Shown piece after piece: positions 12,985 through 41,408 of a stretch of DNA of 42,258 nucleotides (positions within the stretch are counted from its first letter, which is position 1; every line of letters begins with the position of its first letter). This DNA is from Desulfamplus magnetovallimortis (GTDB lineage: Bacteria > Desulfobacterota > Desulfobacteria > Desulfobacterales > Desulfobacteraceae). Both the position numbers and the translations under genes were made by a program. Location of the stretch: the NCBI RefSeq assembly GCF_900170035.1, contig NZ_LT828547.1, positions 1 through 42,258 on the forward strand, written 5' to 3'. Under the pieces are notes generated by a model that worked only from the letters and a program-made list of their open reading frames with translations, was not told the origin of the DNA and searched no databases.

Positions 12985-13039
12985 TCAATCCTTCACCACT
13001 GTCAATACACCGTTTCAACAACAAGTCCGGGAGGAATAT

Positions 13040-14464: not shown

Positions 14465-14482
14465 GCAGGGAGGATAATCAGG

Positions 14483-16627: not shown

Positions 16628-16659
16628 TCGTTGTGTCACCCTTCGGGAGGAACCAGAAA

Positions 16660-17465: not shown

Positions 17466-17467
17466 TC

Positions 17468-18394
17468 ATGTTCAATCCAAGAGATATCATTGAAGTCCTT
17501 GCCAATAACGTTAAACAGACCCGAAGCCCATTTGGTATTCCAAAATTTCTGGTCAACAAGTGGTGGCAGAAGGCAGATCTTCAAACATCCGGTGAGTACA
17601 TGCTCTTTACAGGGCTTATGTACCAGTTCACACCTTTCATAGATCGCTCCACCCACTATCTTGAGATGTTTGAAGATACTCCATGGGCAGATTATCTTAA
17701 ATACGCAAGGTATGTACCAGGTTATCTGTCCGGCCTTGGACTTGCTGTCATAACACCCTTCAGCGAAAAGAGAAAAGCAGGCCAGGCACTTGTTGACATT
17801 GCAACACTTCTTAAAAAATCAAAGGTCGATTTTGGATATGATCCTTCCATTGACAACTACTCAGGAATTCTGCTTTACGACATGGGTGATCAGGAAGGGT
17901 TTGTACGACATGCAAAGTTTGTTGCAAAAAAACTAAAACAAAAAGGGATAAAAAAGATCATAACAGTTGATCCCCATACCACATATGCTCTTAAGGTGTT
18001 GTTTCCAAAATATGCTGGCGCACATTTTGAGGTCAAACCCTGGTTTGAGATGATGAGACTTTCATCAGGAAAGTGCAACATGACGGTGACCATCCACGAT
18101 CCATGCTTTTATGGCAGATACCTTAATGTATCAGATGCTCCCAGAAAAGTGCTTTCAGGCCTTGGAATCCAGTCATCAAAAATCAGAAACTCCGGAGAAT
18201 TTACAAGCTGCTGCGGCGGACCTGCTGAATCAATTTCTCCGGCCCTTTCAAAAACCATAATGGAAAAGAGAGTTGAAGAGCTTAAAGAACCTGGTAACCC
18301 CATTGTGGCTCTCTGCCCCATATGTCTTGGCAACCTTAAAAAATCAGGTGCCAATGTTGAGGATTTTTCTGCACTTGTTGCAAGGCATGCATAA
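17468..18394 (+). CDS. HdrB/HdrD-like protein with one CCG domain
   Basis: A 308-residue protein. The C-terminal half has one complete cysteine-rich CCG module: HDPCFYGRYL, FTSCCGGPAES and LCPICLGNL. These modules bind a non-cubane [4Fe-4S] cluster that handles a disulfide in HdrB. The N-terminal half lacks the first module seen in classical HdrB and instead starts with a GlpC/HdrD-like region (PFGIPKFLVNKWW, then GEYMLFTGLMYQFTPF). The substrate could be a protein-bound or low-molecular disulfide or persulfide. Start at ATG 17468, set by GGAGGAGG. It follows hdrC by two bases. Confidence 0.8.
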   Translation: MFNPRDIIEVLANNVKQTRSPFGIPKFLVNKWWQKADLQTSGEYMLFTGLMYQFTPFIDRSTHYLEMFEDTPWADYLKYARYVPGYLSGLGLAVITPFSEKRKAGQALVDIATLLKKSKVDFGYDPSIDNYSGILLYDMGDQEGFVRHAKFVAKKLKQKGIKKIITVDPHTTYALKVLFPKYAGAHFEVKPWFEMMRLSSGKCNMTVTIHDPCFYGRYLNVSDAPRKVLSGLGIQSSKIRNSGEFTSCCGGPAESISPALSKTIMEKRVEELKEPGNPIVALCPICLGNLKKSGANVEDFSALVARHA

Positions 18395-25100: not shown

Positions 25101-25398
25101 TTACTCATCAAGCATTGCTGCACTTGAAGCCTTCAGACAATCCCCTGAAAAGTTTGATCTGTTGATAACAGATCTTATAATGCCCGACATGACAGGTGAC
25201 AGACTGACATCTGCCATAAAGAAGATCAGAGCAGATATCCCTGTTATACTATGCACAGGTTTCAGTGATGAGCTGAACATGAATGAACTCAAATCAACGG
25301 GTGTGGACGAGATTATTCTTAAACCGGTTCTCAACAGGGATATTGCTGCTGCAATACGAAAATTATTAGACACTTCCCCAACTACCAAAGAGATTTGA
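22135..25398 (+). CDS. MASE3-GAF-PAS-PAS hybrid histidine kinase
   Basis: A 1087-residue membrane hybrid sensor kinase. The N-terminal ~260 residues have repeated hydrophobic helices and the MASE3-like text FLGVAYLFVGFIDLLHTLSY. A GAF domain follows (ESRIGFIHFVDWDKNSISLQ), then two PAS domains (ENSPALISIYDNNGRYQLAN and QEGIIITDSNGIITFVNPGF). HisKA has His718 in GGIAHDFNN, and the ATPase domain contains DTGCGID and GKGTGMGLAVIHGIV. A C-terminal receiver has Asp1013 in ITDLIMPD. All catalytic residues are present. The signal is unknown. The start lacks a strong ribosome site. A receiver gene 124 bases downstream is a likely partner. Confidence 0.85.
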   Translation: MDIIPQNTNREYLSELYTNLITLAAILFALYMVSRFNFLLFHGIAEIFSITVAWGVFLLVWNARKFAMDNSFTFLGVAYLFVGFIDLLHTLSYKGMGVFALESSANIATQLWISARYMEAISLLIFPMLIKKKVTSINFILFIYSAVTSIVIISIFMLPLFPVCYIEGTGLTFFKKGSEYSICVILAFAALLMFFKRNLMEARVYKLIIISIGITICAELCFTFYVSVYGLSNLMGHFFKIISFYIIFIAIIKSGFKEPYSLIFHGLLEEKKSLEQNIIVPQKRSLLIMESRLRINQFSFNCTVEELLQKVLDEVEMLTESRIGFIHFVDWDKNSISLQMWSSATLSNACNIPDSLSHYPIDRAGIWADSLRTGKPVIHNDYEKAEGKKGLPPGHISILRELTVPVFRGDCIVAILGVGNKPSPYTQEDIETVTSIASMGWDIIERKKAEDALEKSQKMLESIIENSPALISIYDNNGRYQLANQSLADVIGIPPEKIIDHSFNDLLPQEISEQFMLRINEIFKTGKSSQFKDNIFLNANSKDYITTLFPVQEENGNIKSAGAISIDVTENILIQEEILRLKSAIDQVQEGIIITDSNGIITFVNPGFEKITGYSQKESMGKNPRFLKSGKQDSGFYRKMWETLKAGRTWSGRIVNRHKNGALFTEDTTISPVLDENGKILNFIAIKKDITEELDVQRRLEQAQKMEAIGTLAGGIAHDFNNMLFPIMGHTEMLKDDLPKNSPLHHYVDSIMEAAGRSSELVKQILAFSRQSDGEAEPTMLQPVIKEVLKLLRSTFPSTIRINHNINANCSMCLINPVKFHQVLMNIATNSLHAMESKGKGELFVSLNEDYIDRIQSQKMDMPEGTYACLEITDTGCGIDSSIASKIFDPYFTTKAEGKGTGMGLAVIHGIVNNAGGHVCFQSNPETGTTFKVYLPCITEEKKPMTETGNKYNESIKGGDEHLLLVDDEAPVIEMIKLLLMRLGYSISSYSSSIAALEAFRQSPEKFDLLITDLIMPDMTGDRLTSAIKKIRADIPVILCTGFSDELNMNELKSTGVDEIILKPVLNRDIAAAIRKLLDTSPTTKEI

Positions 25399-26439: not shown

Positions 26440-28839
26440 ATGACCCGCATCCTCAACCGTATCCAGCACAGTCTTGTGTTCAAACTTATCATGATAACCG
26501 GCGTTGTATGTCTTGTCGCAATTTCAATCTGGGCATACTTCAGCATTGAGTATCAGCGAAAAAAGTTCATAAACGACACCACAGACATTGCCGATCGTAT
26601 CAGCAAAACCATACGTCTTGGAACGCACTACTCCATGATGCTCAACTCAAGGGATGACATCAATCAGATAATAAGAAACACTGCCAATCAAAAAGGTATT
26701 TTGAATGTCCGGATAACAAACAAGGCAGGATATATCAAATTTTCCAACATACCTTCAGAAGTTGACCAGAAGCAGGATCTTGAATCAGAGGCATGTGTTC
26801 TCTGCCACAGGCAGTCACCTCCCCTTGTTGATCTGACACTTGATCAGAGAAAACGCCTTTTTACAACAGAACAAAATGAGAAACTTCTCGGTATAATCAC
26901 ACCCATTTATAACGAGCCAAACTGCTCTTCCCAATGCCATTTCCATGATCCTGAAAACAAAGTTCTGGGCGCTCTTGATGTTGTTATTTCCCTTAAAGAG
27001 ACAGAAGCTGAAATTATTAAATATGAGCAGAGCATTTTTCTGCTTGCAGTGGTCATTATTATCATACCATCTCTTTTCATATTTATATTTGTTTATCAGT
27101 TTGTTATCAAGCCAGTTAAAGAGTTGACGGAAGAGACAAAACATATTGCTTCAGACAATGGTTTTAACCCAATTAAAACTGATCCTCACAGTGAAATAGG
27201 CAGATTAAACACGGCATTCAGCAACATGGCCCAAAAAATAAGGGATAACCAGATAGAGCTGACCAAGCAAAAAAATGAATATCAGACACTTTTTGAAAAT
27301 GTCCCATGCCTTATAACGGTACAGAACAGAGATTTCCAGCTTATCAACTTCAACAGGGAGTTTTACGATAAATACAGTCCAGGCTCTGGTGATTACTGCT
27401 TCCAGGCATACAAAGGAAGAACCAAAAAATGTGATAATTGCCCGGTGGAGAGAACATTTTTAGATGAAAAATCCCACTATTCGGAAGAGAGCGGAGAAGG
27501 CAAGAACGGCACAATGGAATACTGGCTTGCAAGGACATCGCCCATAAGAAACGCAGCAGGTGAAGTTGTTGCTGCAATGGAGATAAGCCTTGATATTACT
27601 GAACGAAAAAAACTTGAGCAGCGGGCTGAACAGTCAGAAAAGAAATATCAGGTTATTTTCAACAACATACCTAATCCAATATTTGTACTTGATTATGATA
27701 CCCTTAAAATAATAAACTGTAACAGCAGTGTATTTCAGGTCTATGGATATCAGGAGTCAGAGCTTCAGGGGAAAAAATTCACCACCCTTTTTGCTGATGC
27801 AGATGAAAACCCATCCATTGTTAGCCTACCAGTTTCAGCAATACCATCCGGAAGACCATCTGATATCGACGAAAACCCTGAAAAAAAGGAAAATGAGAAA
27901 GCATACAGCAATGAAAACAGAAACAAAAAATATAAATATAACGACGAGCAGATCAGAGAATCAACCATTCTGAACACAGTACGTCATGTAAAATCAAACG
28001 GGCAGATATTTTATGTGGATATCTGGATATCTCCCAGCGAATATCCAGGGCAGAAGGTGCTGCTTGTGACAACTTCTGATATTACAGAACGTCTTGAAAC
28101 AGAGACACAGTTCAACCAGGCAGCCAAACTTGCCACACTTGGGGAGATGGCAACCGGTGTTGCCCACGAACTTAACCAGCCACTTTCGGTAATAAAAACA
28201 TCCAGCAGCTTCTGTATCTCAAAGATCAGCAAAAAACAGGATATCAAACAGGATATACTTAACCGTCTGCTCCAGAAAATTGACAGTAATGTGGACAGAG
28301 CCTCAAGGATTATTGTCCACATGAGGGATTTTGCCAGAAAATCAGAGATCAATGTTGAAAGAACCTCAGTAAAGCGAATCGTCATCAGTGCTCTGGAGAT
28401 CTTCAGCCAGCAGTTAAAGGTCAGAGGAATTGATGTTGTATGCCAGATACCCGATGATCTTCCTGATGCCATGGCCGACCCGGGAAGGCTTGAACAGGTC
28501 TTCATCAATCTGCTTTTAAATGCCCGTGATGCCATTGAGGAAAAATCCAGCCGGAATAACAATGACTCGGAAAAGAGCATTTTCATCAGAGGCTTTGAGG
28601 AAAACGGCAAAATTTATCTGGAAATTGAAGATACAGGTACTGGAATTCCTGATGATGTTGCAGAAAAAATATTCCAGCCATTTTTTACAACAAAAGAGGT
28701 GGGAAAGGGTACCGGCCTTGGCCTTTCAATAAGCTATGGTATAATAAAAGACTGCAAGGGGATTATCAAATTGAAGCAAAGCTCAGGAAGCGGAACCATT
28801 TTCCAGATTATCCTTCCCTCTGCCCAGGAAGTGATATAA
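26440..28839 (+). CDS. Periplasmic sensor histidine kinase with c-heme-like motifs
   Basis: A 799-residue kinase with membrane segments at about 13-35 and 198-222. The intervening periplasmic domain has CVLCH at 119-123 (canonical CxxCH c-heme site) and CSSQCH at 162-167 (CxxxCH), followed by [14 protein letters not shown] as in other heme-bearing sensor domains. Then come HAMP (~220-270), a PAS domain with CDNCP (331-335), and a second PAS domain interrupted by a charged insert (475-505). HisKA has His576 in [10 protein letters not shown], and the HATPase region has [22 protein letters not shown] lies upstream. It probably senses redox state, a gas or electron-carrier status. The next gene, a receiver-kinase, is 15 bases downstream. 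Confidence 0.85.
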
Positions 28840-28854
28840 AGGAGTTTAATTGCC

Positions 28855-30546
28855 ATGACATCAGATGGTCTAAAAAAAATTCTTCTTGTGGATGACGAAC
28901 AGGACATAAGGGAAGTTCTGGGAATCACCCTTGAAGATATGGGATTTGAGGTATTTACAGCCGAAAATGGACAAAAGGCCATGGAGCTTTTTGATAAGCA
29001 GGACTTTTCCATAATTCTGACTGACATCAAAATGCCGGTGATGGATGGAATAGAGCTTTTGAAAAAAATCAAATTCAAATCTCCACTTACCGAAGTTATC
29101 ATGATAACCGGACATGGAGACATGGATCTTGCCATTGAAAGCTTCCGGCATGAAGCTGTGGAATTTATCACAAAACCTGTTGATGTTACCAAACTTGAGG
29201 TGGCAATAAGAAGGGCTGAGGAAAAAATAGAGATTCGCAAAGGCATTCAGGAATATACCCATAACCTTGAAAACCTTCTATGGTCAAAGACAGAAGCCCT
29301 TAAAAAAGCTGAACAAAAGAAAAAACAGCCTGCCTCAACCCTTAATCGTGATAAAAAAGATATCACTGCGATAATGGAGACCCTGCCCCTGATTATTTTC
29401 TTTGTGGATGAAAATTTGAAGATATCCCTTGCCAACAACCTGTTTAAAGAAAAATTCGGCGACTATGACGACAGATACTGCCATGAACTATGCATGGATA
29501 AAAAAGCTCCTTGCGATGATTGTCCTGCCATTCTGACATTTAAAAACGGAACATCCCATCAAATTGAAAAAAAATTTTTAACTGCCATAAGAGACAAAAC
29601 TGACCGGAATGTGGCTCATCAGGATATCTCTTGCGAGGAATCTCAAATGAGTTATCTTGTCTGGACATCTCCAATTTTAAATGAGTCATCAAGCCAAGGT
29701 AAAAAAACCGGCACAATTTCAACCATTGACGAAAAAAGTAGTAAAGCCCCCCAAAAAAAAGCTGTTTCAGAAGTTTTGATCATGGCAACGGATATCTCAA
29801 AGGTGCTGGATATCCAGGATCATCTTGCATCCTTAGGATTAATGATAGGATCTGTTTCACATGGCATCAAGGGGCTTTTAACCGGCCTTGATGGCGGCGT
29901 ATATCTTCTCAATGCCGCTTTAAACAAAGATGACCAGGCCCTGGCCCAGGAAGGGCTTGATATGGTCAAGCAGATGACGTCCAAAATACGCAAGATGATC
30001 CTTGATATTCTCTTTTATGCCAAGGAGAGAGAGCTTTACATTGAAGATATTCCGGCAACTGCATTTGCTCTTGACCTTGCTTCAGTCATAAAGCCCAAGG
30101 CGGAAAAAAACGGAATATCCTTTACCTTGAACCTGCCGGAGCAGGATTTTACCTTCAGAGCTGACTCTGCCATTCTCCATGCAGCCCTTGTAAATATCCT
30201 TGACAATGCAGTTGATGCCTGTGCTGAAGATAAGGATTCCAGTAAAAAAACAGAAAAAGGGATGGCCAACGACAAAGAAGCAAAAGATCCAACCATCTCT
30301 TTTGAACTTCAAAAGATTGGAAACAGTATCCAGTTTGTCATTTCCGACAACGGTGTAGGCATGGAACAGGATGAAATTAAAAAAGCCTTTACCCTGTTTC
30401 ATTCGGGTAAAGGCAAAAAAGGCACAGGTCTTGGCCTGTTTATTTCCAACAAAGCGGTTCAGCAGCACAAAGGAACCATCAGGGCAACTTCGGCAAAGGG
30501 TGTGGGGACATCTTTTTTTGTGACTATTCCAATGATGGATAAGTAA
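28855..30546 (+). CDS. Receiver - PAS - histidine kinase
   Basis: A 563-residue cytoplasmic protein. Receiver at 1-125: DDE pocket in LLVDDEQDIR, Asp57 in ILTDIKMPVMDG, Thr in MITGHGD and Lys in FITKPVDV. A coiled linker precedes a PAS domain with Cys residues (YCHELCMDKKAPCDDCP). The kinase core has His336 in SVSHGIKGLL and an ATPase part with NILDNAVDAC and GKGKKGTGLGLFIS. It follows the heme-motif kinase by 15 bases, so the two likely form a phosphorelay. Its stop is only three bases from the convergent hdrB stop, leaving no room for separate terminators. Confidence 0.85.
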   Translation: MTSDGLKKILLVDDEQDIREVLGITLEDMGFEVFTAENGQKAMELFDKQDFSIILTDIKMPVMDGIELLKKIKFKSPLTEVIMITGHGDMDLAIESFRHEAVEFITKPVDVTKLEVAIRRAEEKIEIRKGIQEYTHNLENLLWSKTEALKKAEQKKKQPASTLNRDKKDITAIMETLPLIIFFVDENLKISLANNLFKEKFGDYDDRYCHELCMDKKAPCDDCPAILTFKNGTSHQIEKKFLTAIRDKTDRNVAHQDISCEESQMSYLVWTSPILNESSSQGKKTGTISTIDEKSSKAPQKKAVSEVLIMATDISKVLDIQDHLASLGLMIGSVSHGIKGLLTGLDGGVYLLNAALNKDDQALAQEGLDMVKQMTSKIRKMILDILFYAKERELYIEDIPATAFALDLASVIKPKAEKNGISFTLNLPEQDFTFRADSAILHAALVNILDNAVDACAEDKDSSKKTEKGMANDKEAKDPTISFELQKIGNSIQFVISDNGVGMEQDEIKKAFTLFHSGKGKKGTGLGLFISNKAVQQHKGTIRATSAKGVGTSFFVTIPMMDK

Positions 30547-30549
30547 CCA

Positions 30550-31410
30550 TCAATAAGATAAAACCAGTTCCTTAACCGCAAGATTCTTGTGCAGCATAAG
30601 CTCTTCCCGTGAAATCCCCATGGCCATACCCAACAACTGGGGCAGATAGATGACAGAGACAGAAAGATCCTCACCGGCTTTTCTTGACAACTCCTCCTGA
30701 AAGCCCTCAAGGTTCAACTGGCACATGGGACATACGGTTACAATGGCATCTGCCCCCTTGGCAGATTTTAATATCTTCTGCACAAGTTTTCCGGCAGCGC
30801 TTTTTTTGGTATTCATGTTGGATGCTCCGCAGCACTGTGCCCCCATATCCCAGGGAAAAACTTCTGCTCCGCAAGCTTCAATCAATGGTTCCATTGAACG
30901 TGGTTCTTCTGGATCATCAAAAACCGGATAAGGTCTTAAACACTGACACCCGTAATATGGCACAATTTTAAGGCCAGACAATTTTTTTGTGACCTTGTTT
31001 TTAATCTGATCTGCTCCTATATCATTTGCCAGAATATCAAGAAGATGGCGAACCTTAAGTTTTCCTTCAAGTTTCAAAGCTTCTTCTGCAAGACATTCGT
31101 CTATGGAAGCTGACATAGATGGATTTTGCTTCTTCTCCATTTCCACTTTTTTAAGATTCAGGTAACATGCACTGCATGGAACCATCACAGAAAAATTTTG
31201 CTTCATCTTTTCTGCCAGGGCAAGATTTCTTGCAGGCAGCACAAATGACAAAAGAGAGCTTACAGGTTCAGCAGCAGTGGCTCCGCAGCAGCTCCAGCCT
31301 TCAATTTCAGCAAGCTCTATATCAAGGGCATGCATAACAGCACGGGTGGAGGCATCATATTCAATTGCCGATGCTTCCAGGGAACAGCCGGGATAATAAA
31401 TATAGCTCAT
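30550..31410 (-). CDS. hdrB: HdrB, two-CCG heterodisulfide reductase subunit
   Basis: A 286-residue classical HdrB. The first CCG module is YYPGCSLEASA, WSCCGATAAE and PCSACYLNLKK; the second is YYGCQCLRPYP, AQCCGASNMN and CPMCQLNL. Each binds a non-cubane [4Fe-4S] cluster that reduces a disulfide; in methanogens this is CoM-S-S-CoB, and the bacterial substrate is unknown. The start overlaps the hdrC stop by four bases (ATGA), so the two are coupled. It is the last gene of the 41408-30550 operon. Confidence 0.9.
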   Translation of the reverse strand: MSYIYYPGCSLEASAIEYDASTRAVMHALDIELAEIEGWSCCGATAAEPVSSLLSFVLPARNLALAEKMKQNFSVMVPCSACYLNLKKVEMEKKQNPSMSASIDECLAEEALKLEGKLKVRHLLDILANDIGADQIKNKVTKKLSGLKIVPYYGCQCLRPYPVFDDPEEPRSMEPLIEACGAEVFPWDMGAQCCGASNMNTKKSAAGKLVQKILKSAKGADAIVTVCPMCQLNLEGFQEELSRKAGEDLSVSVIYLPQLLGMAMGISREELMLHKNLAVKELVLSY

Positions 31411-31958
31411 GGCATCTGCTCCTCTCTGTTTTCAATTTCAGAAACCTTCTTAAATATTCTGTCAAGGTTACCCTGCCCCCTTCCATCTGCACCAGAAGGA
31501 AGAGAGAAAGATACCTTGTTTTTGCTCATCAGCTTCAATCCAAGGGAAGCAAAGTCAAATGGCAGAAGAGGATTTTTCATTTCCAGGAAATAGAGTGTCA
31601 TAAACTCGCTCTCTCTTACTCGTCCATGACGCCTTACGCTCTCCATGAAACTGCCGTAAAATGCACCTGATTTTCTGAAAGTCTTCACATCATTCTTATA
31701 GGCCACCTCCTTCAGCATTGACATTGCCCTTGTAAGAGGCAATCCCCTGGGGCATTTCAAGGTGCAGAAATAACAGGTTGAACAATATGCAAAAGTCTGG
31801 CTTTCAAAAATTTCATCCGCCCTGTCCATTAAAACCATCCGCCACAGATGCCTTGGAGTCAGATCCATGGCATCTGCATTGGGACAGGTTCCGGTGCATG
31901 TGCCACACTGCATGCAAGTTGCAAGTAACGCTTTTATAGAGCCTGTATCTTTCATCAC
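31407..31958 (-). CDS. hdrC: HdrC iron-sulfur subunit
   Basis: A 183-residue HdrC with two [4Fe-4S] motifs, CMQCGTCTGTCP near the N-terminus and CSTCYFCTLKCP further on, separated by the usual PRHLWRMVLMDRADEI helix. The C-terminal extension (about 110 residues) is typical of HdrC. It carries electrons from HdrA to HdrB. It overlaps hdrB by four bases and starts six bases after the receiver-HdrA stop. The start at 31958 has GGAG upstream. Confidence 0.9.
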   Translation of the reverse strand: MMKDTGSIKALLATCMQCGTCTGTCPNADAMDLTPRHLWRMVLMDRADEIFESQTFAYCSTCYFCTLKCPRGLPLTRAMSMLKEVAYKNDVKTFRKSGAFYGSFMESVRRHGRVRESEFMTLYFLEMKNPLLPFDFASLGLKLMSKNKVSFSLPSGADGRGQGNLDRIFKKVSEIENREEQMP

Positions 31959-31964: not shown

Positions 31965-34900
31965 TTAATACCCAATTGCAGCATCAATGGTTTCAAACAT
32001 CTGCTGATCTGTAAATCCGCTTACAAACGACGCACTGTTGGGACAAATCGCTGCACAGGCACCGCATCCCTGGCACATGGCTGCATTGACATCAATTTTC
32101 ATTGTCTCTTCATTCAGATGGCGGGCATCATAGGGACATGTATCAACACAGCGAAGACAGAGAGAACATAGACTTGTTTTAACTCCTGCTGTCACAGAGG
32201 ATGGCTGGATTTTATCATGGGTGATAATACACATGGCTCTCATGGCAGCGGCTCTGGCACTTATTATGCTCTCTTCCACATCTCTTGGCCCAATGGCTGT
32301 TCCACATATAAAAATTCCTTCACGGGTACTGTCAACCGGTCGCCATTTGGAGTCAGCCTGTCTGAAAAAATGATACTCATCGTTTTTGATACCCATTATC
32401 TCTGCAAGCCCTGAATATTGTAAAGATAAATGTGAATTTGCAGAATCCTGAGATAAACTGAATCCAACAGCTTCAGAAGGGACAACACCTGTTGCAAGAA
32501 CCAGAAGATCACCACTGATTTCAATTGTCCTGCCAATTACTGGTTCATCCAACCTTATTTTAATAAGGTCACAATTCTGCTTTTCCTGCTGTAAATCATC
32601 TCCATCTACATTGTCTGAATTTCCTTTCTCTACATATACCTGGGGCTTTTTATCAGAAGTGTATTGAATAAAAATAATACCGCTCTCTCTTGCCTGATTA
32701 TAGTATTTTTCCGTAAATCCCGGTGACATCATATCCCTGTAGAGTATGTAAATATCAATATCAGGATTTATCTTTTTCAATGACAGTGCATGTTTAAGTG
32801 CAGATGTACAGCAGACACGACTGCAATATGGTTTGATTTCATCCCTTGAATCCACACATTGAATCATGACAACGGTTTCAAGTTTTGCAAAATCAATAAC
32901 AGGGATAGTAGCATCAGCCTCAACATCTGCGCTGTTGCCTGATATGATATTCTGAACCTTACTATTAAGGTTTTGCTGGATCTGATTAGTTTTAGTGTTA
33001 TTCAGGGCTTCCTGCATCTGTTTCAAGGTTATTATGGCATCGCTTTTTCCCCTCGAATATGAAGCAGTATCAGCCTCGGATGCACCTGTGGCAATAATCA
33101 CTGCACCGTGCTTAATAACCTCCCTTATGCCACCATAATTTGTGGCAGCCTCTCCTTTTTCTTTTTTCTCTTCTGTTTTCTCTATGGTTGAAGAAAAATT
33201 ACCAACTTCCCCTCTGCATTCAACAACTTCCCAGCCACTGTAAAGAAAAATCAGGGGATGTTTATCAATTTTCTCCTTCATTTCAGCCAGAAGAGCCGGA
33301 AAATTATTGCCATTTAGATTGGAGGCAAGCCAGTTGAGATTTCCTCCTACCACATGCTTTTTTTCAACCAAAATAACCTTATACCCGCTATCTGCAATGA
33401 GAAGTGCTGCTGTCATTCCGGAAATTCCTGCGCCAATTATCAACACTTTCTGTTCAACGGAAACAGGCTTTATCATCTGCGTTACAGTGCTACCTGAACT
33501 TTTTTGCCCTACAGCACTGCCAGAAGATTTTGATTTGACATCTCCAGGGGCATTACCTTTAGAAGAATCACCTTCATCATATCCAGGGTTCCTGAATGCA
33601 GCAAGTTTTGAGGTGATCTTTACTTCCGAAGATAATATTGGTGAAGATGCACCTGAATATCCATTCCTGAACTCAGGTTGCAGGGGAGCTCTGTTTCCCC
33701 TCAACTGATTCAGGATTTTCATGGCTTCGGCAGCAGCAGCAGATGCATGAATCACAGACTCTGAAATGTCTTTTAAGCCTCCAAAAGCACCGCCAACAAA
33801 AATTGCATTTTTATTTGATGTTCCTCCAGCGCTTCTATTTGATGCACCTGCACCGGAAGATGTGCCACCTGAAGTGCCTGAATCAGAAAGCATAGGCAGG
33901 GCACTCTCCGGAAAGACTCCTGTTTCAGGGAATCCAAATTCATTCAAAGGCACTCCTGTAAGTTCAGATAGGGCCATAGCCTCGGACGATGGCCTCTGTC
34001 CCACAGATAAAACCACCATGTCAAAAACTTCATCTTTTTTGGAATCAGAAAAAGAGGGCATCTTAGACATGGTATCAGGTGTGGAATCAGATATGACTTC
34101 AGATGTAGAATCAGACATGACTTCAGATGTGGAATCCGATATGACTTCAGATGTGGAAACCCCAGAATCTGCAATAAAAATTCTGAGCTTTCCGCTCTCA
34201 TTGTCCATACGTACAGAGTGGGGTCTTATACGCTTCAAAATAACCTGGTATTTTTCTTCAGCCTCTTTTCTGTATGCTTCAAACTCCTTTCCGAAACAGC
34301 GCATATCCATATAATAGATCACTGTTTCAATGGTACCACCTGAACGCTTTCGAGTTAATACGGCCTCCTTTAATGCAAACATGCAGCAGACAGATGAACA
34401 GTATGAAGCCCCGCTGTGGACATCCCTTGATCCAACGCACTGAATCCAGGCAATCCTTTTGGGAACCTCTCCGTTGGATGGCCTGATAATTTCTCCCCCT
34501 GTTGCTCCTGAACCGCTTACCATCCTCTCAAACTCAAGACTTGTGATAACATCCGGATAAACCTTGTATCCAAATGTATTTTTGCCACTATCCGGATTAT
34601 AATAATCAGTTCCACAGGCCATGATCAAGGCACCTGCATCAACTTCCATCACAACATCGTCACTCTGACGCCCTGACTGGTATATGCTGTTCACCTTTTC
34701 AATAAGGGTATCAGGGTCAAAAGGTTTAATGATGTACTCAAGGGCCCCCCTCTTCATGGTCTCCACTGCTGTTTCCACAGTGGCATAGGCTGTCATCATA
34801 ACCACCTGAAGCTCAGGTGCGATCTCCTTTGCCCTTTTAAGAACTTCCGTACCCTCCATCTCCGCCATTCTGATATCAAGAAGCATAAGGGAATATTCGT

Positions 34901-35618
34901 TCTTCTCTATCATTTCAAGGGCAATCTGGCCTGATTCCGCCATATCCACAGGATAACCTTCAAAATCAAACCACTCTTTTATGGAATCCCTTACAATCAG
35001 CTCATCATCCACCACCAGAATTCTGAAATTCTTTTTCTGGTCTTCGGGCAAAGTAATGGCATTTTCGGGACAGGCATCAACACAGGCACCACAAAGAGTG
35101 CAGGAATTAATGTCAATTGTATAGCGTTTGGGAATGGCATGGGGCAAAGGAAGATAGATGGCCTTATGGGTAGTGCTGCCCTCATTAAATCTATCCGGAA
35201 TATCACCAACCGGACAGACTTCTGTACACTCTCCGCATCCTGTACAAAGCTCAGGATTGACATACTGTTTTTTTTGGCGCAACTGCACTGTGTAATTGCC
35301 TGATTCACCCTCGATTTTCTCAATGGTTGTGGAGAGCATAAGATCAATATTGTCATGAAAAAGACCACGCCGGAGACAGTACTGTGATGCAGAATCCCGA
35401 TGCATCATGGGAAGCATCCGGCACATGCCGCAACGATCCGTGGGAAACTGATAATCCAGCTTGGAGAGAATTCCCCCCATGTGTGGAGCTTTTTCAATTA
35501 ACGTCACATGATGACCGGCATCTGCCAGATCCAGGGCAGAACGAATACCGCCAATACCGGCTCCCACCACAATGGCACCCTTACCCTTTTCAGGGAGTTT
35601 TTCCTGTTGTTCGTTCAT
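31965..35618 (-). CDS. Double HdrA fusion with an inserted CheY-like receiver domain
   Basis: A 1217-residue protein. First HdrA half: FAD motif VVGAGIGGIRSALDLADAG (17-35), Cys motif FPTDRCGMCRM (58-68), [4Fe-4S] motifs CTGCGECTEVCP (125-136) and CTLCGACVDACP (173-184). Directly after the second motif, residues 198-313 form a complete receiver: Asp204/205 and Glu206, phosphoacceptor Asp248 in LLDIRMAEMEG, Thr276, and Lys298 in IIKPFDPDT. The HdrA fold then resumes (CSSVCCMFALK, 407-417). A low-complexity section (485-720) leads to a second HdrA half: FAD motif IGAGISGMTAALLIADSG, CSRVCC and two C-terminal [4Fe-4S] motifs (CSLCLRCVDTCP and CQGCGACAAICP). AAGGTGGG precedes the ATG. The receiver suggests phosphorylation-controlled electron transfer (inference). 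Confidence 0.9.
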   Translation of the reverse strand: MNEQQEKLPEKGKGAIVVGAGIGGIRSALDLADAGHHVTLIEKAPHMGGILSKLDYQFPTDRCGMCRMLPMMHRDSASQYCLRRGLFHDNIDLMLSTTIEKIEGESGNYTVQLRQKKQYVNPELCTGCGECTEVCPVGDIPDRFNEGSTTHKAIYLPLPHAIPKRYTIDINSCTLCGACVDACPENAITLPEDQKKNFRILVVDDELIVRDSIKEWFDFEGYPVDMAESGQIALEMIEKNEYSLMLLDIRMAEMEGTEVLKRAKEIAPELQVVMMTAYATVETAVETMKRGALEYIIKPFDPDTLIEKVNSIYQSGRQSDDVVMEVDAGALIMACGTDYYNPDSGKNTFGYKVYPDVITSLEFERMVSGSGATGGEIIRPSNGEVPKRIAWIQCVGSRDVHSGASYCSSVCCMFALKEAVLTRKRSGGTIETVIYYMDMRCFGKEFEAYRKEAEEKYQVILKRIRPHSVRMDNESGKLRIFIADSGVSTSEVISDSTSEVMSDSTSEVISDSTPDTMSKMPSFSDSKKDEVFDMVVLSVGQRPSSEAMALSELTGVPLNEFGFPETGVFPESALPMLSDSGTSGGTSSGAGASNRSAGGTSNKNAIFVGGAFGGLKDISESVIHASAAAAEAMKILNQLRGNRAPLQPEFRNGYSGASSPILSSEVKITSKLAAFRNPGYDEGDSSKGNAPGDVKSKSSGSAVGQKSSGSTVTQMIKPVSVEQKVLIIGAGISGMTAALLIADSGYKVILVEKKHVVGGNLNWLASNLNGNNFPALLAEMKEKIDKHPLIFLYSGWEVVECRGEVGNFSSTIEKTEEKKEKGEAATNYGGIREVIKHGAVIIATGASEADTASYSRGKSDAIITLKQMQEALNNTKTNQIQQNLNSKVQNIISGNSADVEADATIPVIDFAKLETVVMIQCVDSRDEIKPYCSRVCCTSALKHALSLKKINPDIDIYILYRDMMSPGFTEKYYNQARESGIIFIQYTSDKKPQVYVEKGNSDNVDGDDLQQEKQNCDLIKIRLDEPVIGRTIEISGDLLVLATGVVPSEAVGFSLSQDSANSHLSLQYSGLAEIMGIKNDEYHFFRQADSKWRPVDSTREGIFICGTAIGPRDVEESIISARAAAMRAMCIITHDKIQPSSVTAGVKTSLCSLCLRCVDTCPYDARHLNEETMKIDVNAAMCQGCGACAAICPNSASFVSGFTDQQMFETIDAAIGY
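34081..34160 (-). repeat. 24-bp coding tandem repeat, 3.3 copies
   Basis: Units at 34081-34104, 34105-34128 and 34129-34152, with a partial unit to 34160, inside the receiver-HdrA gene. They encode a Ser/Asp/Thr/Glu-rich 8-residue unit (TSEVISDS) around residues 487-512, between FAD-domain parts. Length change keeps the frame. Confidence 0.85.
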
Positions 35619-35631: not shown

Positions 35632-36783
35632 TTAATGTAATCCTGTGACATCCTTAAATTCGTTTTCATAAAATACTGACAATGGCGGTGCATCTGCCAC
35701 GTCTTTCCCAGGTACATAATCAAAAGCTTTCTGTGCCTGCAATCCCGCCATTTTAAAAAGCTCTGCAATGGGAATATCATTGGGGCATGCATTGGAGCAC
35801 TGACCGCAACCAACACAGGACAACCCCATATGAATCATGCGGGTCATGTGAAAGAAAACTGTATCAACAGGCATTTTGAGTACACCTCTGGCCTTTGACC
35901 AGGCTGAATACTGAAAAGGATCATAATCCACAACATCAGTATTAAAAACGCACTCCTTGCAAAAACATACAGGACATGCCACACGACAGTTGTAGCAGTT
36001 GACACATGAAGAAAAATAGTTAGAAAGCTCTGCAATGCTTGATGTTTGTGCTGCAAGCTGTTCAAAAATCGCCTTCTGTTTTTCTTTTCGTTTACTGATA
36101 CAAATATTTTTATCGTCCATCGTTTTTTGTAGGATATCGCTGCTGCTGCCTGCATCCTTAAAAGTATCGCCGGCAATTTTACCAAGTATCCCGGCACCTT
36201 TTTCACTTTGAGAGACAATAACAAGTTCCTGATTCTCTGCCCCGAAGTAATGGAGTGTAATGTCAGAGAGTTCCGGAAAGGGCTTATCGCATATTTGACA
36301 GGCTGTGGATATATTTGGACTCTCCATATCAAAATTATCTGCAATCTTCTTCTTGATAAACTCAAGGGTGAACCCCTCCCCCTTATCCTTTGCCAGTTGA
36401 TTGAAATCTCTGTTGGAAAAGGCTCCTGCGCAATCATGGGATATAATAACAATGTTATCCCATCTGGCCTGATGAATCTTTACAAGTTCCACAAAAGCTC
36501 TTACTTCACATGGTCTCAAAACTGCTGCGATTTTCTCTTCTCCCTCACGTCGGGTCAATCTTGATACAAGTTTTGCCCCGTTAAGCTGAAATGATGGAGA
36601 GAGAGGATCTGCCTGGTCAAGAAGAGAGAGATCAGAGACAAGAGCTGGCATGATGGCCTGGTTATTGACAGAACGCAGTGGAACAAGAACACCACTGACC
36701 TCACCGCTTCCAAGAAGGCTTTTCAAAAAAGCCCTGAAGGAATCAAGCAGGTTTTCCTTCCGGAGTGTATATGCTTTATCCAT
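35632..36783 (-). CDS. FrhB/FdhB-like iron-sulfur flavoprotein
   Basis: A 383-residue protein of the F420-hydrogenase/formate-dehydrogenase beta-subunit type. The N-terminal part has VLVPLRSVNNQAIMPALVSD, AAVLRPCEVRAFVELVKIHQ and NIVIISHDCAGAF. The C-terminal part has Cys-rich motifs: CVNCYNCRVACPVCFCKEC and CVGCGQCSNACP. Proteins of this type pass electrons between a hydride donor (F420, formate dehydrogenase or NAD(P)H) and iron-sulfur centres. It sits between mvhD (17 bases upstream) and the receiver-HdrA gene (13 bases downstream), so it is probably a module feeding electrons to or from the Hdr complex. The exact partner cannot be told from sequence alone. Confidence 0.8.
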   Translation of the reverse strand: MDKAYTLRKENLLDSFRAFLKSLLGSGEVSGVLVPLRSVNNQAIMPALVSDLSLLDQADPLSPSFQLNGAKLVSRLTRREGEEKIAAVLRPCEVRAFVELVKIHQARWDNIVIISHDCAGAFSNRDFNQLAKDKGEGFTLEFIKKKIADNFDMESPNISTACQICDKPFPELSDITLHYFGAENQELVIVSQSEKGAGILGKIAGDTFKDAGSSSDILQKTMDDKNICISKRKEKQKAIFEQLAAQTSSIAELSNYFSSCVNCYNCRVACPVCFCKECVFNTDVVDYDPFQYSAWSKARGVLKMPVDTVFFHMTRMIHMGLSCVGCGQCSNACPNDIPIAELFKMAGLQAQKAFDYVPGKDVADAPPLSVFYENEFKDVTGLH

Positions 36784-36800: not shown

Positions 36801-37223
36801 TTATATGACCATTTTCAAATCAGACTGTAACGGGCCGGCCTCTCTTATCTCCTCAACCATCTTCCGGATTGTTGCGGCAAATTCAATGCCGTCACTTGCA
36901 CCGATCCATGTGAGTCGAAGGCGTTTTTTATCAATGCCGAAACGCGATAGAATTTCGTGCAAAAGCTTTGTCCTGCGCCTGGCCTTGTAATTGCCGTTGA
37001 TATAGTGGCAGTCTCCCGGGTGACATCCACTTATCAACACGGCATCAGCTCCCTGGAGAAATGCCTTCAACACATATTTTGGATCAACCATACCGGTGCA
37101 CATCACCTTGATAAGCCTTACATTTTTCGGATATTTCTGTCGGGATGTTCCGGCCAGATCCGCGGCAGTGTAGGTGCACCAGTTACATACAAATGCAATG
37201 ATTGTGGGTTCAAATGTTTCCAT
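36801..37223 (-). CDS. mvhD: MvhD, [2Fe-2S] electron-transfer subunit
   Basis: A 140-residue canonical MvhD. The cysteines are all present: CNWCTYTAADLAG, VMCTGMVDP and SGCHPGDCHY. In methanogens it bridges hydrogenase and HdrA; other donors use it in bacteria. AGGAGAAG precedes the ATG at 37223. No hydrogenase gene is near, so the electron source should be the GltD-like domain of the upstream HdrA or the downstream FrhB/FdhB-like protein (inference). Confidence 0.9.
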   Translation of the reverse strand: METFEPTIIAFVCNWCTYTAADLAGTSRQKYPKNVRLIKVMCTGMVDPKYVLKAFLQGADAVLISGCHPGDCHYINGNYKARRRTKLLHEILSRFGIDKKRLRLTWIGASDGIEFAATIRKMVEEIREAGPLQSDLKMVI

Positions 37224-37395: not shown

Positions 37396-40300
37396 TTATA
37401 TTCCAATACTGTTTACAGCATCCATTACCCCTGCAAGTTCTCCGAAAATCTGTCTCTCACTGAAATGACGCACCTGTGCAGCACCACTTGGACAGAATCC
37501 AGAACAAGAGCCGCACCCTTTGCAGAGAGCTTCATTCACAACTGAAACGCCTCTGATTCCATCAAAATAGATGGCAGTATATGGGCAAAGACCAATGCAG
37601 GTTTGACAGCCGGCACAGATATCAGGATCAATAAATGAAATAGTTGACGGAATATCCACCTCTCCCCTTGAAGCAAGCAAAAGAGCCTTGGCAGCAGCGC
37701 CTGATGCCTGGGATACTGTATCAGGAATATCCTTTGGCCCTTGACATGCACCTGCTATGAAAACACCGTCTGTCGCTGTATTTAAAGGCCCAAGCTTTGG
37801 ATGCTCCTCCAGGAAAAATCCGTCAGCTCCCTGGTTTATGCCAAGTACCCTGCCTATATCCCTTGCGTCCTTTCTTGCCTCCATGGCAGTGCAAAGCACA
37901 ACCATATCCACAGGAACCCTGATTTTTTCCCCAAGCAATGTATCTTCGGAGATGACCACAAGTTTACCCTTTTCCCTTTCAGATTCTGCATGATCGGTGA
38001 TCTGCGCTGCTTTTCCACGAATAAATACAGTGCCCTCCTCCTGACATTTTGTATAAAACTCTTCATATCCTTTACCAAAACAGCGCATATCTATGTAAAA
38101 ATTATATACAAGTGCGTCATGTCCAACCTTTTCATGGATGAGATGGCCATATTTCAGGGCATACATGCAGCATACCCTGGAGCAATATTCATGGTGATTG
38201 ATATCACGGCTGCCGATACAGTGAAGAATTGCAACACTTTTTGGGGAACGGGTCAGATTACCATCATCATCCCTTATCAAAATCTGTCCGCCTGTGGGGC
38301 CTGTTGCATTACTAAGTCGCTCAAACTCAAGATTGGTAAATACATTGGGGTATTTTTTATATCCATAGGCTTTCATCTCCGATGGATCCTGGGGATCAAA
38401 TCCTGTGGCTGTAATGATACTTCCCACCTTGACATGTATCAGCTCATCCTGATCAGCATGATTTACAGCACCCGGCTGGCAGGCAGTTACACACTGCATG
38501 CACTCACAGCAACCACCGCAGTTGATGCATTTTCCAGCCTCCTTTACAGCCTCTTCCTCATCAAAACCCCTATCAACTTCATCAAAGGATTTAACCCTTA
38601 CGCTGCTCTCAAGCATTTGAGGTTCTGCCCGCTTTGTGATTAGAGCATCTTCCGGAAGCGGTGCCCATCTATCCTGATCCATCTTACTCTTTCCATTACT
38701 CTTTCTACCTTGATGAAAGATAAGCTCCTCTTCTGCGGCCTTGTTTTTTATATCCTGCCACTCTTCATGATTTTCTGCACCAAGATAAAGATCAATGCCC
38801 CTTACCACCCTGTGAGCTGCTGCAATGGCCTCAACAACGGTTGCAGGGCCTGTTACAGCATCACCTGCTGCAAACACGCCGTTTACAGAGGTCTCCATTG
38901 AACTTTCGTCAATTTTGATGGTTCCCCAGGATGAAAAATCAATACCCTCGTCCTTAAGTTTGCCGGTCAAAGCCACTTTTTGTCCTATGGCAGGAATAAC
39001 CATATCGCATTCAATGATGAATTCCGAATTTTTTACAGGAACCGGCCTTCGCCTGCCTCCTTTATCAGGTTCTCCCAACTCATTTCTAATACATTTAATC
39101 GCAACAACCTTATGAGCGCCGGCACCGCCGTTATCATCTCCTGCAACCACAGCAAGAGGAGTTGCAAGATGTATAAACTCAACCCCTTCCTCCTTTGCGC
39201 CTTCAATCTCCTCAGCTTCTGCCGGCATCTCGTTTTCCGTTCGGCGATAGACAACAATTACCCTTTTTGCTCCGGAACGAATGGCAACCCGGGCAGCATC
39301 CATAGCCACATTACCGCCGCCTATTACAACAACCCTTGGGCTTTTTCTTAACATGCCAACATTTTGATTAAGGTTAATAGTTTCAAGAAAAACAAGAGCA
39401 TCAACAACATCCGGCATATCTTCATTTTCAATGTTCATTTTCACCGGCAAATGGGTGCCAATGCCCACAAAAACTGCATTAAACCCGTCATCTTTCAGGG
39501 ATTTCAGTGAAAAATCCTTTCCAAGCGCCATACCGGTTTTAAGCTCAACACCTGTGGAGAGGATATGATTTATCTCTTTTTCAAGGATTGCAGGGGGGAG
39601 ACGATAGTCAGGAATGCCGGTTTTAAGCATACCACCGGGAGAATCCTTGGCCTCAAATATGGTAACAAGATAGCCCTTTCGCCGCAGATAATAGGCAACC
39701 GTCAAGCCGGCAGGCCCTGACCCCACAACTGCAACCCTTTTATCTTTTTCCGTGACATCGGGCATGGGCACCTTCTCAAGGCTTGCCTTGTCAGCAGCAA
39801 AACGTTTAAGATTTCTGATGGAAACAGCTTCGTCGATAAGTGCTCTGCGGCAGTCAATTTCGCATGGATGGGGGCAAACCCTGCCAAGAACTCCAGGCAG
39901 AGGAAGACGTTCCATAATGATATTGAGCGCCTCCTGATATTTGCCAACCTTGATCATCTGTACATATCCCTGGACATTGGTACCGGCAGGACATGAGAGT
40001 TTGCATGGTGGAGTATCTCTCTTGTCAATGGCAAAGGTAATGGGAACAGCCTGGGGAAATGCCCTGTAGATGGCTGTTCGCTTCTGAAGCCCCACATCCC
40101 ACTCACTCGGCATCTTTACAGGGCATACTGTGGTACACTCCCCGCATCCGGTGCAGGTGGAAGCGACATAACGTGCCTTTTTTCTTATAGTGACATCGTA
40201 ATTGCCGATATAGCCCTGAATCTCCTCCACCTCGCTGTTGGACAAGAGATTCACATAGGGATTCTGGGCTGTCTCCACCATCTTGGGAGTACCTATGCAG

Positions 40301-40881
40301 GCTGCACAGTCAAGTGTTGGAAAAGTCTTATCAAACTGCAACATATGGCCGCCAATTGTTGTATCCTTTTCCACAAGCCAGGCTGTTAACCCGGCGTTGC
40401 CAATGTCAATTGCTGCCTGCATACCTGCAATGCCTCCACCCACAATCATGACATCGGGATTAATAAAGACCTTTCTCTGCTCCAGTGATTCGTGATAGTT
40501 CACACGGCTCAATGCAGCGGCTGCAAGTGTTTTGGCCTTGGCAGTGGCACTGTCCCTGTCATCTGTCACCCATGATACCTGCTCCCTTACCGATGCCATC
40601 TGAAAATAGTAGGGATTCAAACCAGCCCTGAGACAGGCGCTCTGAAAAGTTTTCTCGTGAAGCCTTGGAGAACAGGATGCCACAACCACACGATTCAAGT
40701 TGTAATCCCTGATATCCTTTTCAATGATCTCCTGTCCGGGATCCGAGCACATGAACTTGTAATCCCTTGCCACAACCACATTCCTGATGGTAGAGGCATA
40801 TTCTGCCACCTCTTCCACCCTGACCATTCCGGCAATGTTGATGCCACAGTGGCAGACATAAAATCCTATTCTGATGGACAT
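37396..40881 (-). CDS. hdrA: HdrA with an inserted GltD/NfnB-like NAD(P)H domain
   Basis: A 1161-residue protein. HdrA N-terminal domain 1-130 (GFYVCHCGINIAGMVRV, then SDPGQEII). FAD motif 147-160. FPTLDCAACIGTPKM at 187-201. First ferredoxin motif CTGCGECTTVCP at 243-254. From about 293 to 700 lies a GltD-like module: CKLSCPAGTNVQGYVQMI, VCPHPCEIDC, the FAD motif VVGSGPAGLTVAYYLRRKG at 385-403 and the NAD(P)H motif VIGGGNVAMDAARVAI at 519-534. The second internal Cys motif is at 785-801. CSRVCCMYALK at 900-910. Two C-terminal [4Fe-4S] motifs: CAGCQTCIGLCP and CKGCGSCSGFCP. The start is ATG 40881, with GAGGTG upstream. The GltD-like module should exchange electrons with NAD(P)H. Confidence 0.9.
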   Translation of the reverse strand: MSIRIGFYVCHCGINIAGMVRVEEVAEYASTIRNVVVARDYKFMCSDPGQEIIEKDIRDYNLNRVVVASCSPRLHEKTFQSACLRAGLNPYYFQMASVREQVSWVTDDRDSATAKAKTLAAAALSRVNYHESLEQRKVFINPDVMIVGGGIAGMQAAIDIGNAGLTAWLVEKDTTIGGHMLQFDKTFPTLDCAACIGTPKMVETAQNPYVNLLSNSEVEEIQGYIGNYDVTIRKKARYVASTCTGCGECTTVCPVKMPSEWDVGLQKRTAIYRAFPQAVPITFAIDKRDTPPCKLSCPAGTNVQGYVQMIKVGKYQEALNIIMERLPLPGVLGRVCPHPCEIDCRRALIDEAVSIRNLKRFAADKASLEKVPMPDVTEKDKRVAVVGSGPAGLTVAYYLRRKGYLVTIFEAKDSPGGMLKTGIPDYRLPPAILEKEINHILSTGVELKTGMALGKDFSLKSLKDDGFNAVFVGIGTHLPVKMNIENEDMPDVVDALVFLETINLNQNVGMLRKSPRVVVIGGGNVAMDAARVAIRSGAKRVIVVYRRTENEMPAEAEEIEGAKEEGVEFIHLATPLAVVAGDDNGGAGAHKVVAIKCIRNELGEPDKGGRRRPVPVKNSEFIIECDMVIPAIGQKVALTGKLKDEGIDFSSWGTIKIDESSMETSVNGVFAAGDAVTGPATVVEAIAAAHRVVRGIDLYLGAENHEEWQDIKNKAAEEELIFHQGRKSNGKSKMDQDRWAPLPEDALITKRAEPQMLESSVRVKSFDEVDRGFDEEEAVKEAGKCINCGGCCECMQCVTACQPGAVNHADQDELIHVKVGSIITATGFDPQDPSEMKAYGYKKYPNVFTNLEFERLSNATGPTGGQILIRDDDGNLTRSPKSVAILHCIGSRDINHHEYCSRVCCMYALKYGHLIHEKVGHDALVYNFYIDMRCFGKGYEEFYTKCQEEGTVFIRGKAAQITDHAESEREKGKLVVISEDTLLGEKIRVPVDMVVLCTAMEARKDARDIGRVLGINQGADGFFLEEHPKLGPLNTATDGVFIAGACQGPKDIPDTVSQASGAAAKALLLASRGEVDIPSTISFIDPDICAGCQTCIGLCPYTAIYFDGIRGVSVVNEALCKGCGSCSGFCPSGAAQVRHFSERQIFGELAGVMDAVNSIGI

Positions 40882-40973
40882 ATGAATCACCTCGTTTTAT
40901 TGATTTTAAGTTTCAAGATTTTTTACAGGTTCATCATTTTTTTCAAAACGATCAACACATATTAAGATTTTGC

Positions 40974-41408
40974 TTAAGGGTAGTGATTGGTCAAAATACA
41001 GATGGAGTTAAGAAGCTCATCTTCCTGCAATGGTTTCTCAAGGAACAATATCTTCTCTCTTTTTCCACTGCACAGTTCCCGATAAAATTTTTTTCGACGA
41101 AAGGTAAGGGTTTTCAATGGAATGGTTGAAATAAAAATAACGGGAATATCCTTCACCCTTTTCTGGGCAAACAGCCTCTTGAGGCTGCTTTCGGTGGTGG
41201 TCATTTTTTCGCCGGCTGTTTTTTCTCCGGATGAAAGCGCATCTACGATCAAAAGCTCAGGTTTAAAATGTTCAAGCTGCTCTATGCCCTGGCAAACAGA
41301 CAGAGATGCAAACACCTCAAAGCCCCTGTTTTCAAGAAAAGTCTGCAAAAAAGCATTCTCTTCAGGCTCACTGTTGATGACGATGATGCGATGTACCTTT
41401 CCGGTCAT
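40974..41408 (-). CDS. Degenerate receiver-domain protein heading the second hdr operon
   Basis: A 144-residue receiver-like protein. The usual DD pocket is replaced by NSEPEE (IIVINSEPEENAF), the phosphoacceptor Asp is kept (LLIVDALSS), a Ser is in VIFISTIP and the Lys is in FLEKPLQEDELL. There is no output domain. The loop after the phosphoacceptor is unusually long (GEKTAGEKMTTTESS). GGAGAAA precedes the ATG. It is followed 92 bases later by HdrA-GltD in the same direction, so it may be a regulator or adaptor of the complex. With an altered pocket, phosphorylation is doubtful. Confidence 0.75.
   Translation of the reverse strand: MTGKVHRIIVINSEPEENAFLQTFLENRGFEVFASLSVCQGIEQLEHFKPELLIVDALSSGEKTAGEKMTTTESSLKRLFAQKRVKDIPVIFISTIPLKTLTFRRKKFYRELCSGKREKILFLEKPLQEDELLNSICILTNHYP

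Follow-up and report, generated by a model that had tools for sequence, protein, structure and literature searches.

The output of most two-component systems is a change in gene expression, in motility, or in a second messenger. We describe a receiver domain set inside an enzyme subunit: HdrA-RR, a double HdrA-like protein of Desulfamplus magnetovallimortis. The window, that is, the whole 42,258-nucleotide stretch of DNA that was analysed, is contig NZ_LT828547.1 (assembly GCF_900170035.1), positions 1 to 42,258, forward strand. HdrA-RR and its parts, including the flavin adenine dinucleotide (FAD) domain, lie as follows:

31965..35618, minus strand: double HdrA-like protein with an inserted receiver (HdrA-RR), 1217 amino acids, one uninterrupted frame with an ATG start (Pfam, NCBIfam, phmmer to 5ODC)
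35070..35246, minus strand: inserted 2[4Fe-4S] ferredoxin (Cys125 to Cys183), which immediately precedes the receiver (Fer4 matches)
34689..35027, minus strand: receiver domain, residues 198-310, with Asp204, Asp205, Asp248, Thr276, Tyr295, and Lys298 (Pfam; conserved residues; fold in two models)
33699..34655, minus strand: HdrA FAD/thioredoxin-reductase part of half 1, where the HdrA sequence picks up again at residue 322 (Pfam, NCBIfam, phmmer to 5ODC)
33453..33701, minus strand: low-complexity linker, where relatives have an HdrA N-terminal-type domain (CxC...C...C) (alignment)
31968..33452, minus strand: second HdrA half with a C-terminal 2[4Fe-4S] ferredoxin (Pfam, NCBIfam)

The features of HdrA present in HdrA-RR are the FAD-binding thioredoxin-reductase-like domain and the internal and C-terminal 2[4Fe-4S] ferredoxins, with their cysteine motifs intact; the HdrA N-terminal Fe-S domain is absent from the window protein. 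Pfam places Fer4 clusters ahead of the receiver and at the C terminus, as well as flavoprotein folds in both halves, and pieces of the NCBIfam HdrA profiles match on the N-terminal side of the receiver and once more in half 2. These matches fall below the equivalog cut-offs (544 bits against 1100 for HdrA2, 441 against 1400 for HdrA); since HdrA, HdrB, and HdrC all score below the curated NCBIfam cut-offs, the names are used here to mean HdrA-like, HdrB-like, and HdrC-like. In a phmmer comparison with the HdrA of 5ODC, query residues 14-192 align with HdrA 145-312 and residues 322-485 with HdrA 315-476. The insert of about 129 residues thus falls between HdrA residues 312 and 315 (5ODC numbering), which sets the receiver where the chain leaves the inserted ferredoxin domain at its C-terminal end. 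A sequence-only reading of this DNA had proposed that a receiver interrupts HdrA after its second [4Fe-4S] motif and that HdrA then resumes; Pfam and phmmer to 5ODC agree with it. Half 1 also carries, at window positions 34075-34158, a coding 24-base tandem repeat (3.5 copies, 90% match) that gives a TSEVISDS-like repeat.

The inserted segment is a full receiver by profile: Response_reg (PF00072) covers residues 200-309 at 97 bits against a cut-off of 30.2, over profile positions 1-110 of 111, and Asp204/Asp205, Asp248, Thr276, and Lys298 stand where the same reading had placed them. Aside from HdrA models, its best matches are ZraR and AtoC. We compared it across the window and loci from 28 other genomes of the 39-relative and 395-phylum samples (L051-L078), together with receiver-less double HdrA proteins from 12 genomes (L079-L090) taken from the top of homolog match lists, not at random. 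This gives 26 intact-receiver rows (window and L051-L075), 3 degenerate rows (L076-L078, family f63), and 12 receiver-less rows. The five residues named above are conserved in 26/26 intact rows, and Tyr295, which we take to be the counterpart of CheY Tyr106, is also invariant among them. Further loci (L190-L209, of which 19 of 20 were scored and L199 left out) gave 18 DDDTK sets and one DEDTK. The comparison supports a receiver built for phosphorylation, with a putative phospho-acceptor in an invariant DD/D/T/Y/K setting.

The receiver is also held at near-constant distances from the enzyme parts on either side. Cys183 and Asp204 are spaced by 20 residues in 29/29 rows and 19/19 further loci; Lys298 and the FAD-domain strand lie 31 residues apart in 26 of the 29 rows and in 19/19 further loci, and 33 apart in the other three rows (window, L051, and L052). 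In receiver-less proteins, the same FAD strand follows Cys183 after 21-22 residues (29 in L079). Tethers this short and this nearly fixed place the receiver at the ferredoxin/FAD junction. The eight cysteines of the internal ferredoxin are kept alongside it (first motif 25/25, second motif 26/26 of the intact rows with sequence there). Mean pairwise identity among intact rows is 66% for the receiver, 62% for the part before it, 54% for the FAD part after it, and 51% for the second half, so that the receiver has the highest value of the four segments compared; between degenerate and intact rows, it drops to 28%, with 58 and 52% in the flanks. The receiver is therefore kept at least as strictly as the surrounding enzyme, except where the phospho-residues are lost. 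In the f63 rows, Pro replaces Asp205 and Ala replaces Thr276 in 3/3; Asp248 is retained in 3/3, the first Asp in 2/3, and the Lys in 1/3. These three proteins, which retain a receiver-like segment and its linker lengths and have lost Asp205 and Thr276, are a natural receiver-dead HdrA.

Two AlphaFold2 models were built from thin alignments (11 and 13 rows), with no cofactors and no error matrix: one of window residues 8-1207, with a predicted local distance difference test score (pLDDT) of 62.7 and a predicted template modelling score (pTM) of 0.43, and one of half 1 of an ortholog (L112; pLDDT 73.5, pTM 0.64). Foldseek ranks HdrA structures at the top for both. Each contains a complete five-strand (beta-alpha)5 receiver at about 70-91 pLDDT, with an HdrA strand starting 2-3 residues after its last helix. 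Parts of the ferredoxin stretch fall below 50 pLDDT, and the orientation and contacts of the receiver are fixed by neither model.

The arrangement is common across the order. Homologs that span the receiver in a single stretch occur in 108 of 291 order genomes, its own included (E <= 1e-90), and in 15/39 relatives and 15/395 phylum genomes (own genome in both). The samples overlap, some genomes being in more than one; a small number of matches are truncated where the contig stops (G025; G616, G522, G628, and G556 among others). The G026 copy, interrupted by a contig start, was left out of the counts, as were at least 10 HdrA-RR loci (L110-L119) from a receiver-pattern genome scan, several of which look like already sampled contigs, L110 and L069 for example both measuring 3827 bases. 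A copy in G464 (L197, G464:C1:2013000-2032500) has an in-frame TGA after the receiver and is a broken gene or a sequencing error; selenocysteine was considered and rejected, the position not being a conserved Cys.

On a tree of 41 proteins, made with the receiver columns removed and rooted at the midpoint, the three receiver states need 3 changes, the least possible being 2. The f63 clade has support of 100/100, and L079 (G016) nests beside the window. The history fits one origin, a possible account being a single gain with a loss in L079 and a decay in f63; because the root is a midpoint root, the direction of change is an inference. Excision of the G016 receiver to become a stand-alone CheY was not supported, as the CheY of another locus in that genome, L091, matches HdrA-RR at 56 bits only.

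The earlier reading also pointed to three histidine kinase genes downstream on the other strand, and these are present, the one at 28855 as a receiver-kinase hybrid:

26440..28839, plus strand: membrane histidine kinase (periplasmic sensor, HAMP, PAS, HisKA, HATPase), probable partner (Pfam; linkage, co-occurrence)
26794..26808, plus strand: CxxCH motif (CVLCH, residue 119) in the periplasmic sensor of the 26440 kinase, with a second motif, CSSQCH, at residue 162 (motif reading; haem binding predicted)
28855..30546, plus strand: receiver-PAS-like-kinase hybrid, the other conserved member of the kinase pair (Pfam; linkage)
22135..25398, plus strand: MASE3-GAF-PAS hybrid kinase, whose position beside HdrA-RR is not conserved (domain scan; neighbourhood comparison)

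Orthologs of the 26440 kinase, whose best match is AtoS, lie within about 10 kb of 21/26 intact-receiver loci, 0/3 degenerate loci, and 0/12 receiver-less loci. They share 45-68% identity, and 16/21 are close to full length; a 29% relative in L081 was left out of the count. Four of the five intact loci without an ortholog (L052, L057, L059, and L069) end at nearby contig ends, and L065 is a real miss, with 6.8 kb visible downstream. Genome-wide (E <= 1e-80), the family is found in 24/26 intact genomes (not G014 or G080), 1/3 degenerate, and 2/12 receiver-less genomes. In the order sample, it occurs in 99 of 108 HdrA-RR genomes and 78 of 183 others (C-terminal 300 residues, E <= 1e-75), and within 15 kb of HdrA-RR in at least 56 genomes among the 82 with matches listed. 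The 28855 kinase accompanies it as a receiver joined to a kinase core; the PAS-like middle is missing in many relatives. The idea that a receiver adjoining the ferredoxin could gate the electron path is partly supported: comparison gives it a putative phospho-acceptor in an invariant setting, a tight tether at the ferredoxin exit, and two kinases (26440 and 28855) that are genetically linked to it in many genomes. Of the three kinases, 22135 was dropped as a partner, having no conserved place beside HdrA-RR.

The periplasmic part of the 26440 kinase suggests what it may sense. A CxxCH and a Cx3-4CH motif are present there in 17/21 HdrA-linked orthologs, and the remaining four (L066, L067, L072, and L073) are without that part. 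The sensor has a weak Pfam match to the Mcp40H-20 sensor; PF21563 reaches 25.2 bits on the window kinase against a cut-off of 27 and exceeds its cut-off in L074, and PF11845 is not among the matches listed. A c-type haem is likely in this sensor, to judge from its sequence, because the accessible part of PMC12889525 describes a family of haem-c Cache sensors proposed to sense nitric oxide or redox state.

The plus-strand kinase genes converge on a minus-strand operon, with the facing ends of kinase gene and operon at 30546 and 30550, respectively. Besides HdrA-RR, it comprises:

40974..41408, minus strand: stand-alone DVU0259-like receiver, acidic pair degenerate (weak match below cut-off)
37396..40890, minus strand: HdrL, an HdrA with an inserted NfnB/GltD-like NAD(P)H domain (Pfam, NCBIfam)
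36801..37223, minus strand: FlpD/MvhD subunit (Pfam)
35632..36783, minus strand: FrhB/FdhB-like iron-sulfur flavoprotein subunit (Pfam)
31407..31958, minus strand: HdrC-like subunit (NCBIfam match below cut-off)
30550..31410, minus strand: HdrB-like subunit with CCG domains (Pfam; NCBIfam match below cut-off)

The order is stand-alone receiver, HdrL, FlpD, FrhB-like, HdrA-RR, HdrC, and HdrB, with intergenic gaps of 83, 172, 17, 13, 6, and -4 bases. In the stand-alone receiver, the acidic pair is Asn-Ser, with the Asp and Lys retained; in some relatives, a weak homolog precedes HdrL.

The kinase pair also occurs elsewhere. It is found beside TmcB, TmcC, TmcD, and a stand-alone CheY-like receiver in L091, L093, and L102, the NCBIfam assignments of TmcB, C, and D in L091 and of TmcA and D in L093 being above cut-off in 5/5 cases, and it adjoins HdrL or HdrL-HdrB-HdrC in L105 and L107. 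The stand-alone CheYs of L091 and L093 match PF00072 only, and a DNA-binding domain was not found in them. Receivers without DNA-binding outputs beside electron-transfer complexes would fit control of the complexes themselves. The kinase tree intermixes Hdr- and Tmc-linked members, which implies that kinases were swapped or are shared. Two loci are worth recording here: in L203 (G636:C3:453000-472500), HdrA-RR-HdrC-HdrB on one side and TmcB on the other flank the kinase pair together with a CheY; in L091 (G016:C12), a close kinase ortholog stands beside TmcBCD and a stand-alone CheY, yet the HdrA of that genome has no receiver.

Two f126 loci (L191 and L192) and L193, chosen for the absence of the kinase family, have a different kinase nearby, and L192 and L193 also encode a protein of about 440 amino acids with an HdrA-RR-like receiver. 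This protein is taken to be Usp-receiver-Usp by likeness to L109 and L120. In these two loci of G022 (L109:2843-4033 and L120:2831-4033), a protein that reads by eye as Usp-receiver-Usp, its receiver confirmed by scan, adjoins HdrC-HdrB; it reads as a second case of the HdrA-RR type of receiver inside another host protein.

We consider it rather probable, on comparative grounds, that the activity of the Hdr complex is set directly and post-translationally by the kinase-driven receiver in HdrA-RR. A number of observations weigh against this reading. The f63 clade and L079 manage without the switch. The kinase family is also present in receiver-less G016 and G018 and in degenerate G078, is missing at the cut-off in 9/108 HdrA-RR genomes, and, among the matches listed, lies only on another contig in 23 HdrA-RR genomes, some of them through contig breaks. 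Three HdrA-RR genomes have it on the same contig beyond 15 kb, at 43 kb, 2.7 Mb, and 7.9 Mb (about 93 kb if the 8.03-Mb contig is circular), and four loci chosen for an absent or distant kinase (L194-L197) have none of this kind labelled near HdrA-RR. Among the 12 receiver-less loci, contig ends truncate L080 and L085 near the gene, and the association values, Fisher p = 2e-7 for 21/26 against 0/15 linked loci and p = 3e-18 in the order, ignore phylogeny. A kinase dedicated to HdrA is weakened as a candidate, since members of the family serve Tmc and other loci as well and contexts are intermixed in its tree. The window protein itself is atypical: the middle HdrA N-terminal-type domain is present in 40/41 aligned proteins, and the window is the sole exception. 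In 38 of those 40, at least 3 of its 4 Cys columns are intact; all four are found in 23/25 other intact-receiver rows and 12/12 receiver-less rows, and three of the four in 3/3 degenerate rows. The two intact-row exceptions are L059, which ends at a contig end, and L075, in which the domain is present and its Cys are lost.

Within the reading of direct control, HdrA-RR would supply the flavin subunit to a complex that is cytoplasmic, NAD(P)H-linked, and electron-bifurcating (or confurcating), with HdrL, FlpD, FrhB-like, HdrA-RR, HdrC, and HdrB as its predicted make-up; its substrates are likewise predicted, with DsrC a possible disulfide partner. The membrane kinase 26440 probably uses its putative c-type haem to sense either the redox state of the periplasm or a ligand of the haem, and together with the soluble receiver-kinase 28855 would transfer phosphate to Asp248. 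Phosphorylation would then move Thr276/Tyr295 of the receiver and its alpha4-beta5-alpha5 face. Since alpha5 passes nearly without a break into the strand of the FAD domain, and the internal ferredoxin anchors the opposite end of the receiver, the ferredoxin could shift relative to the flavin. The receiver fold has its two tethered ends at the pole opposite the phosphorylated Asp, so that an influence on electron flow would be expected to come by allostery, not from a phosphate beside a cluster. Work on HdrA proposes that moving domains pass the low-potential electron to HA5 and that motion seems to gate transfer (accessible part of PMC12350162); on our reading of that part, HA5 and HA6 would lie in the inserted ferredoxin. 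A receiver clamped between ferredoxin and flavin domain would be well placed to bias such motion. That phosphorylation tunes the low-potential branch to ferredoxin is a tentative proposal, nearer doubtful than probable, with both the gated branch and the direction of the effect as predictions. Somewhat less likely still is a wider scheme of phosphorylation-gated bifurcation, in which one periplasmic-redox phosphorelay would split electrons post-translationally between two respiratory systems, acting on the cytoplasmic Hdr complex via the HdrA hinge receiver and on the membrane Tmc complex via the stand-alone CheY-like receivers.

Direct control of activity has to be weighed against other uses of the same domain. 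The receiver could govern assembly or docking, phosphorylation altering dimerisation or changing how HdrL, FlpD/FrhB, or ferredoxin bind to the complex. Receivers commonly dimerise via their alpha4-beta5-alpha5 face, and that is the face this account would employ. HdrA functions as a dimer in published structures (accessible part of PMC9012536), and in a solved complex the inserted ferredoxin is itself a docking site, with MvhB density attached (accessible part of PMC12350162). We nevertheless hold this account unlikely: the near-fixed linkers on both sides in 29/29 rows suggest mechanical coupling, not only a free docking arm. Information could also flow in reverse, with HdrA reporting redox state or turnover to the phosphorelay; its receiver would then be a phosphate sink or a redox-sensitive phosphatase target and would in that role tune how the same kinases act on Tmc-linked CheY-like receivers and sigma-54 regulators. 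The kinase pair does have other receivers alongside, namely the CheY-like proteins at Tmc loci and the L203 arrangement between Tmc and Hdr operons, but a sink needs neither near-fixed linkers nor insertion at the flavin/ferredoxin hinge, and we regard this account as distinctly improbable.

A receiver that is a structural spacer without signalling could explain why the f63 clade retains linker lengths and receiver-like sequence after phospho-residue loss. Set against this are the phospho-residues in 26/26 intact rows, the rank of the receiver as the most conserved segment, and the drift of its sequence where those residues are lost; a spacer is accordingly a very remote prospect. An assembly artefact or frameshift joining two genes is ruled out for practical purposes by the same architecture in the 108 of 291 order genomes, single-contig assemblies among them.

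CheB, PleD, and RpfG are examples of a receiver that controls a catalytic module in the same chain. HdrA-RR differs from them in that its module is a core flavin/Fe-S enzyme of energy metabolism and its receiver is internal, tethered at both ends. With the HdrA of methanogen HdrABC (PDB 5ODC, 7BKB, and 8RVU), it shares the FAD domain, the internal 2[4Fe-4S] ferredoxin, and the C-terminal ferredoxin, and its operon has HdrB-, HdrC-, and MvhD/FlpD-like genes. Unlike methanogen HdrA, it joins two HdrA halves in one chain, with the receiver between ferredoxin and FAD domain, and a hydrogenase gene was not found among the operon genes scanned.

Double HdrA proteins (HdrA 3 and 4 of ANME, type II HdrA of methane archaea) are fusions of two HdrA units, as is HdrA-RR; the accessible parts of those accounts (PMC9012536, PMC12054007) contain no mention of a receiver, response regulator, or CheY. 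By comparison, the order of the Cys ligands and N-terminal-type domain looks reversed in HdrA-RR relatives, in an alignment read by eye. HdrL or type III HdrA, with its NfnB/GltD insertion, resembles HdrA-RR in that its internal ferredoxin region has taken up a domain foreign to HdrA (same sources, accessible parts), and the neighbour at 37396-40890 is of this kind; the insert is a signalling domain in HdrA-RR and a redox domain in HdrL. Double HdrA and NfnB/GltD-inserted HdrA are thus already published (PMC9012536, PMC12054007, as far as accessible). Locus VIII of the hdr genes in Desulfobacterium autotrophicum HRM2, with hdrL next to hdrA4, hdrB, and hdrC, has a gene set alike by description, not by sequence, and the accessible part of that description mentions no receiver in HdrA4 (PMC2702500). 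A receiver inserted in HdrA was not found described in the literature searched (titles and abstract openings, mostly outside subscription papers), nor in the accessible parts of PMC2702500, PMC5109826, PMC10553843, PMC9012536, PMC12054007, and PMC5861303.

If direct control holds, a phosphorylation switch of the kind usual for gene control sits in the middle of an enzyme that sorts electrons, and the cell may switch its energy metabolism directly. A kinase could then set energy coupling quickly, with no new protein needed, across a large group of sulfate-reducer relatives. The natural receiver-less and receiver-dead versions would provide a handle on how bifurcating enzymes gate the low-potential branch and avoid short circuits.

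Elsewhere in the window, a second HdrA-like/CCG cluster occupies positions 12977-18394 on the plus strand, with HdrA-like genes at 12977 and 14483 and a CCG protein at 17351.

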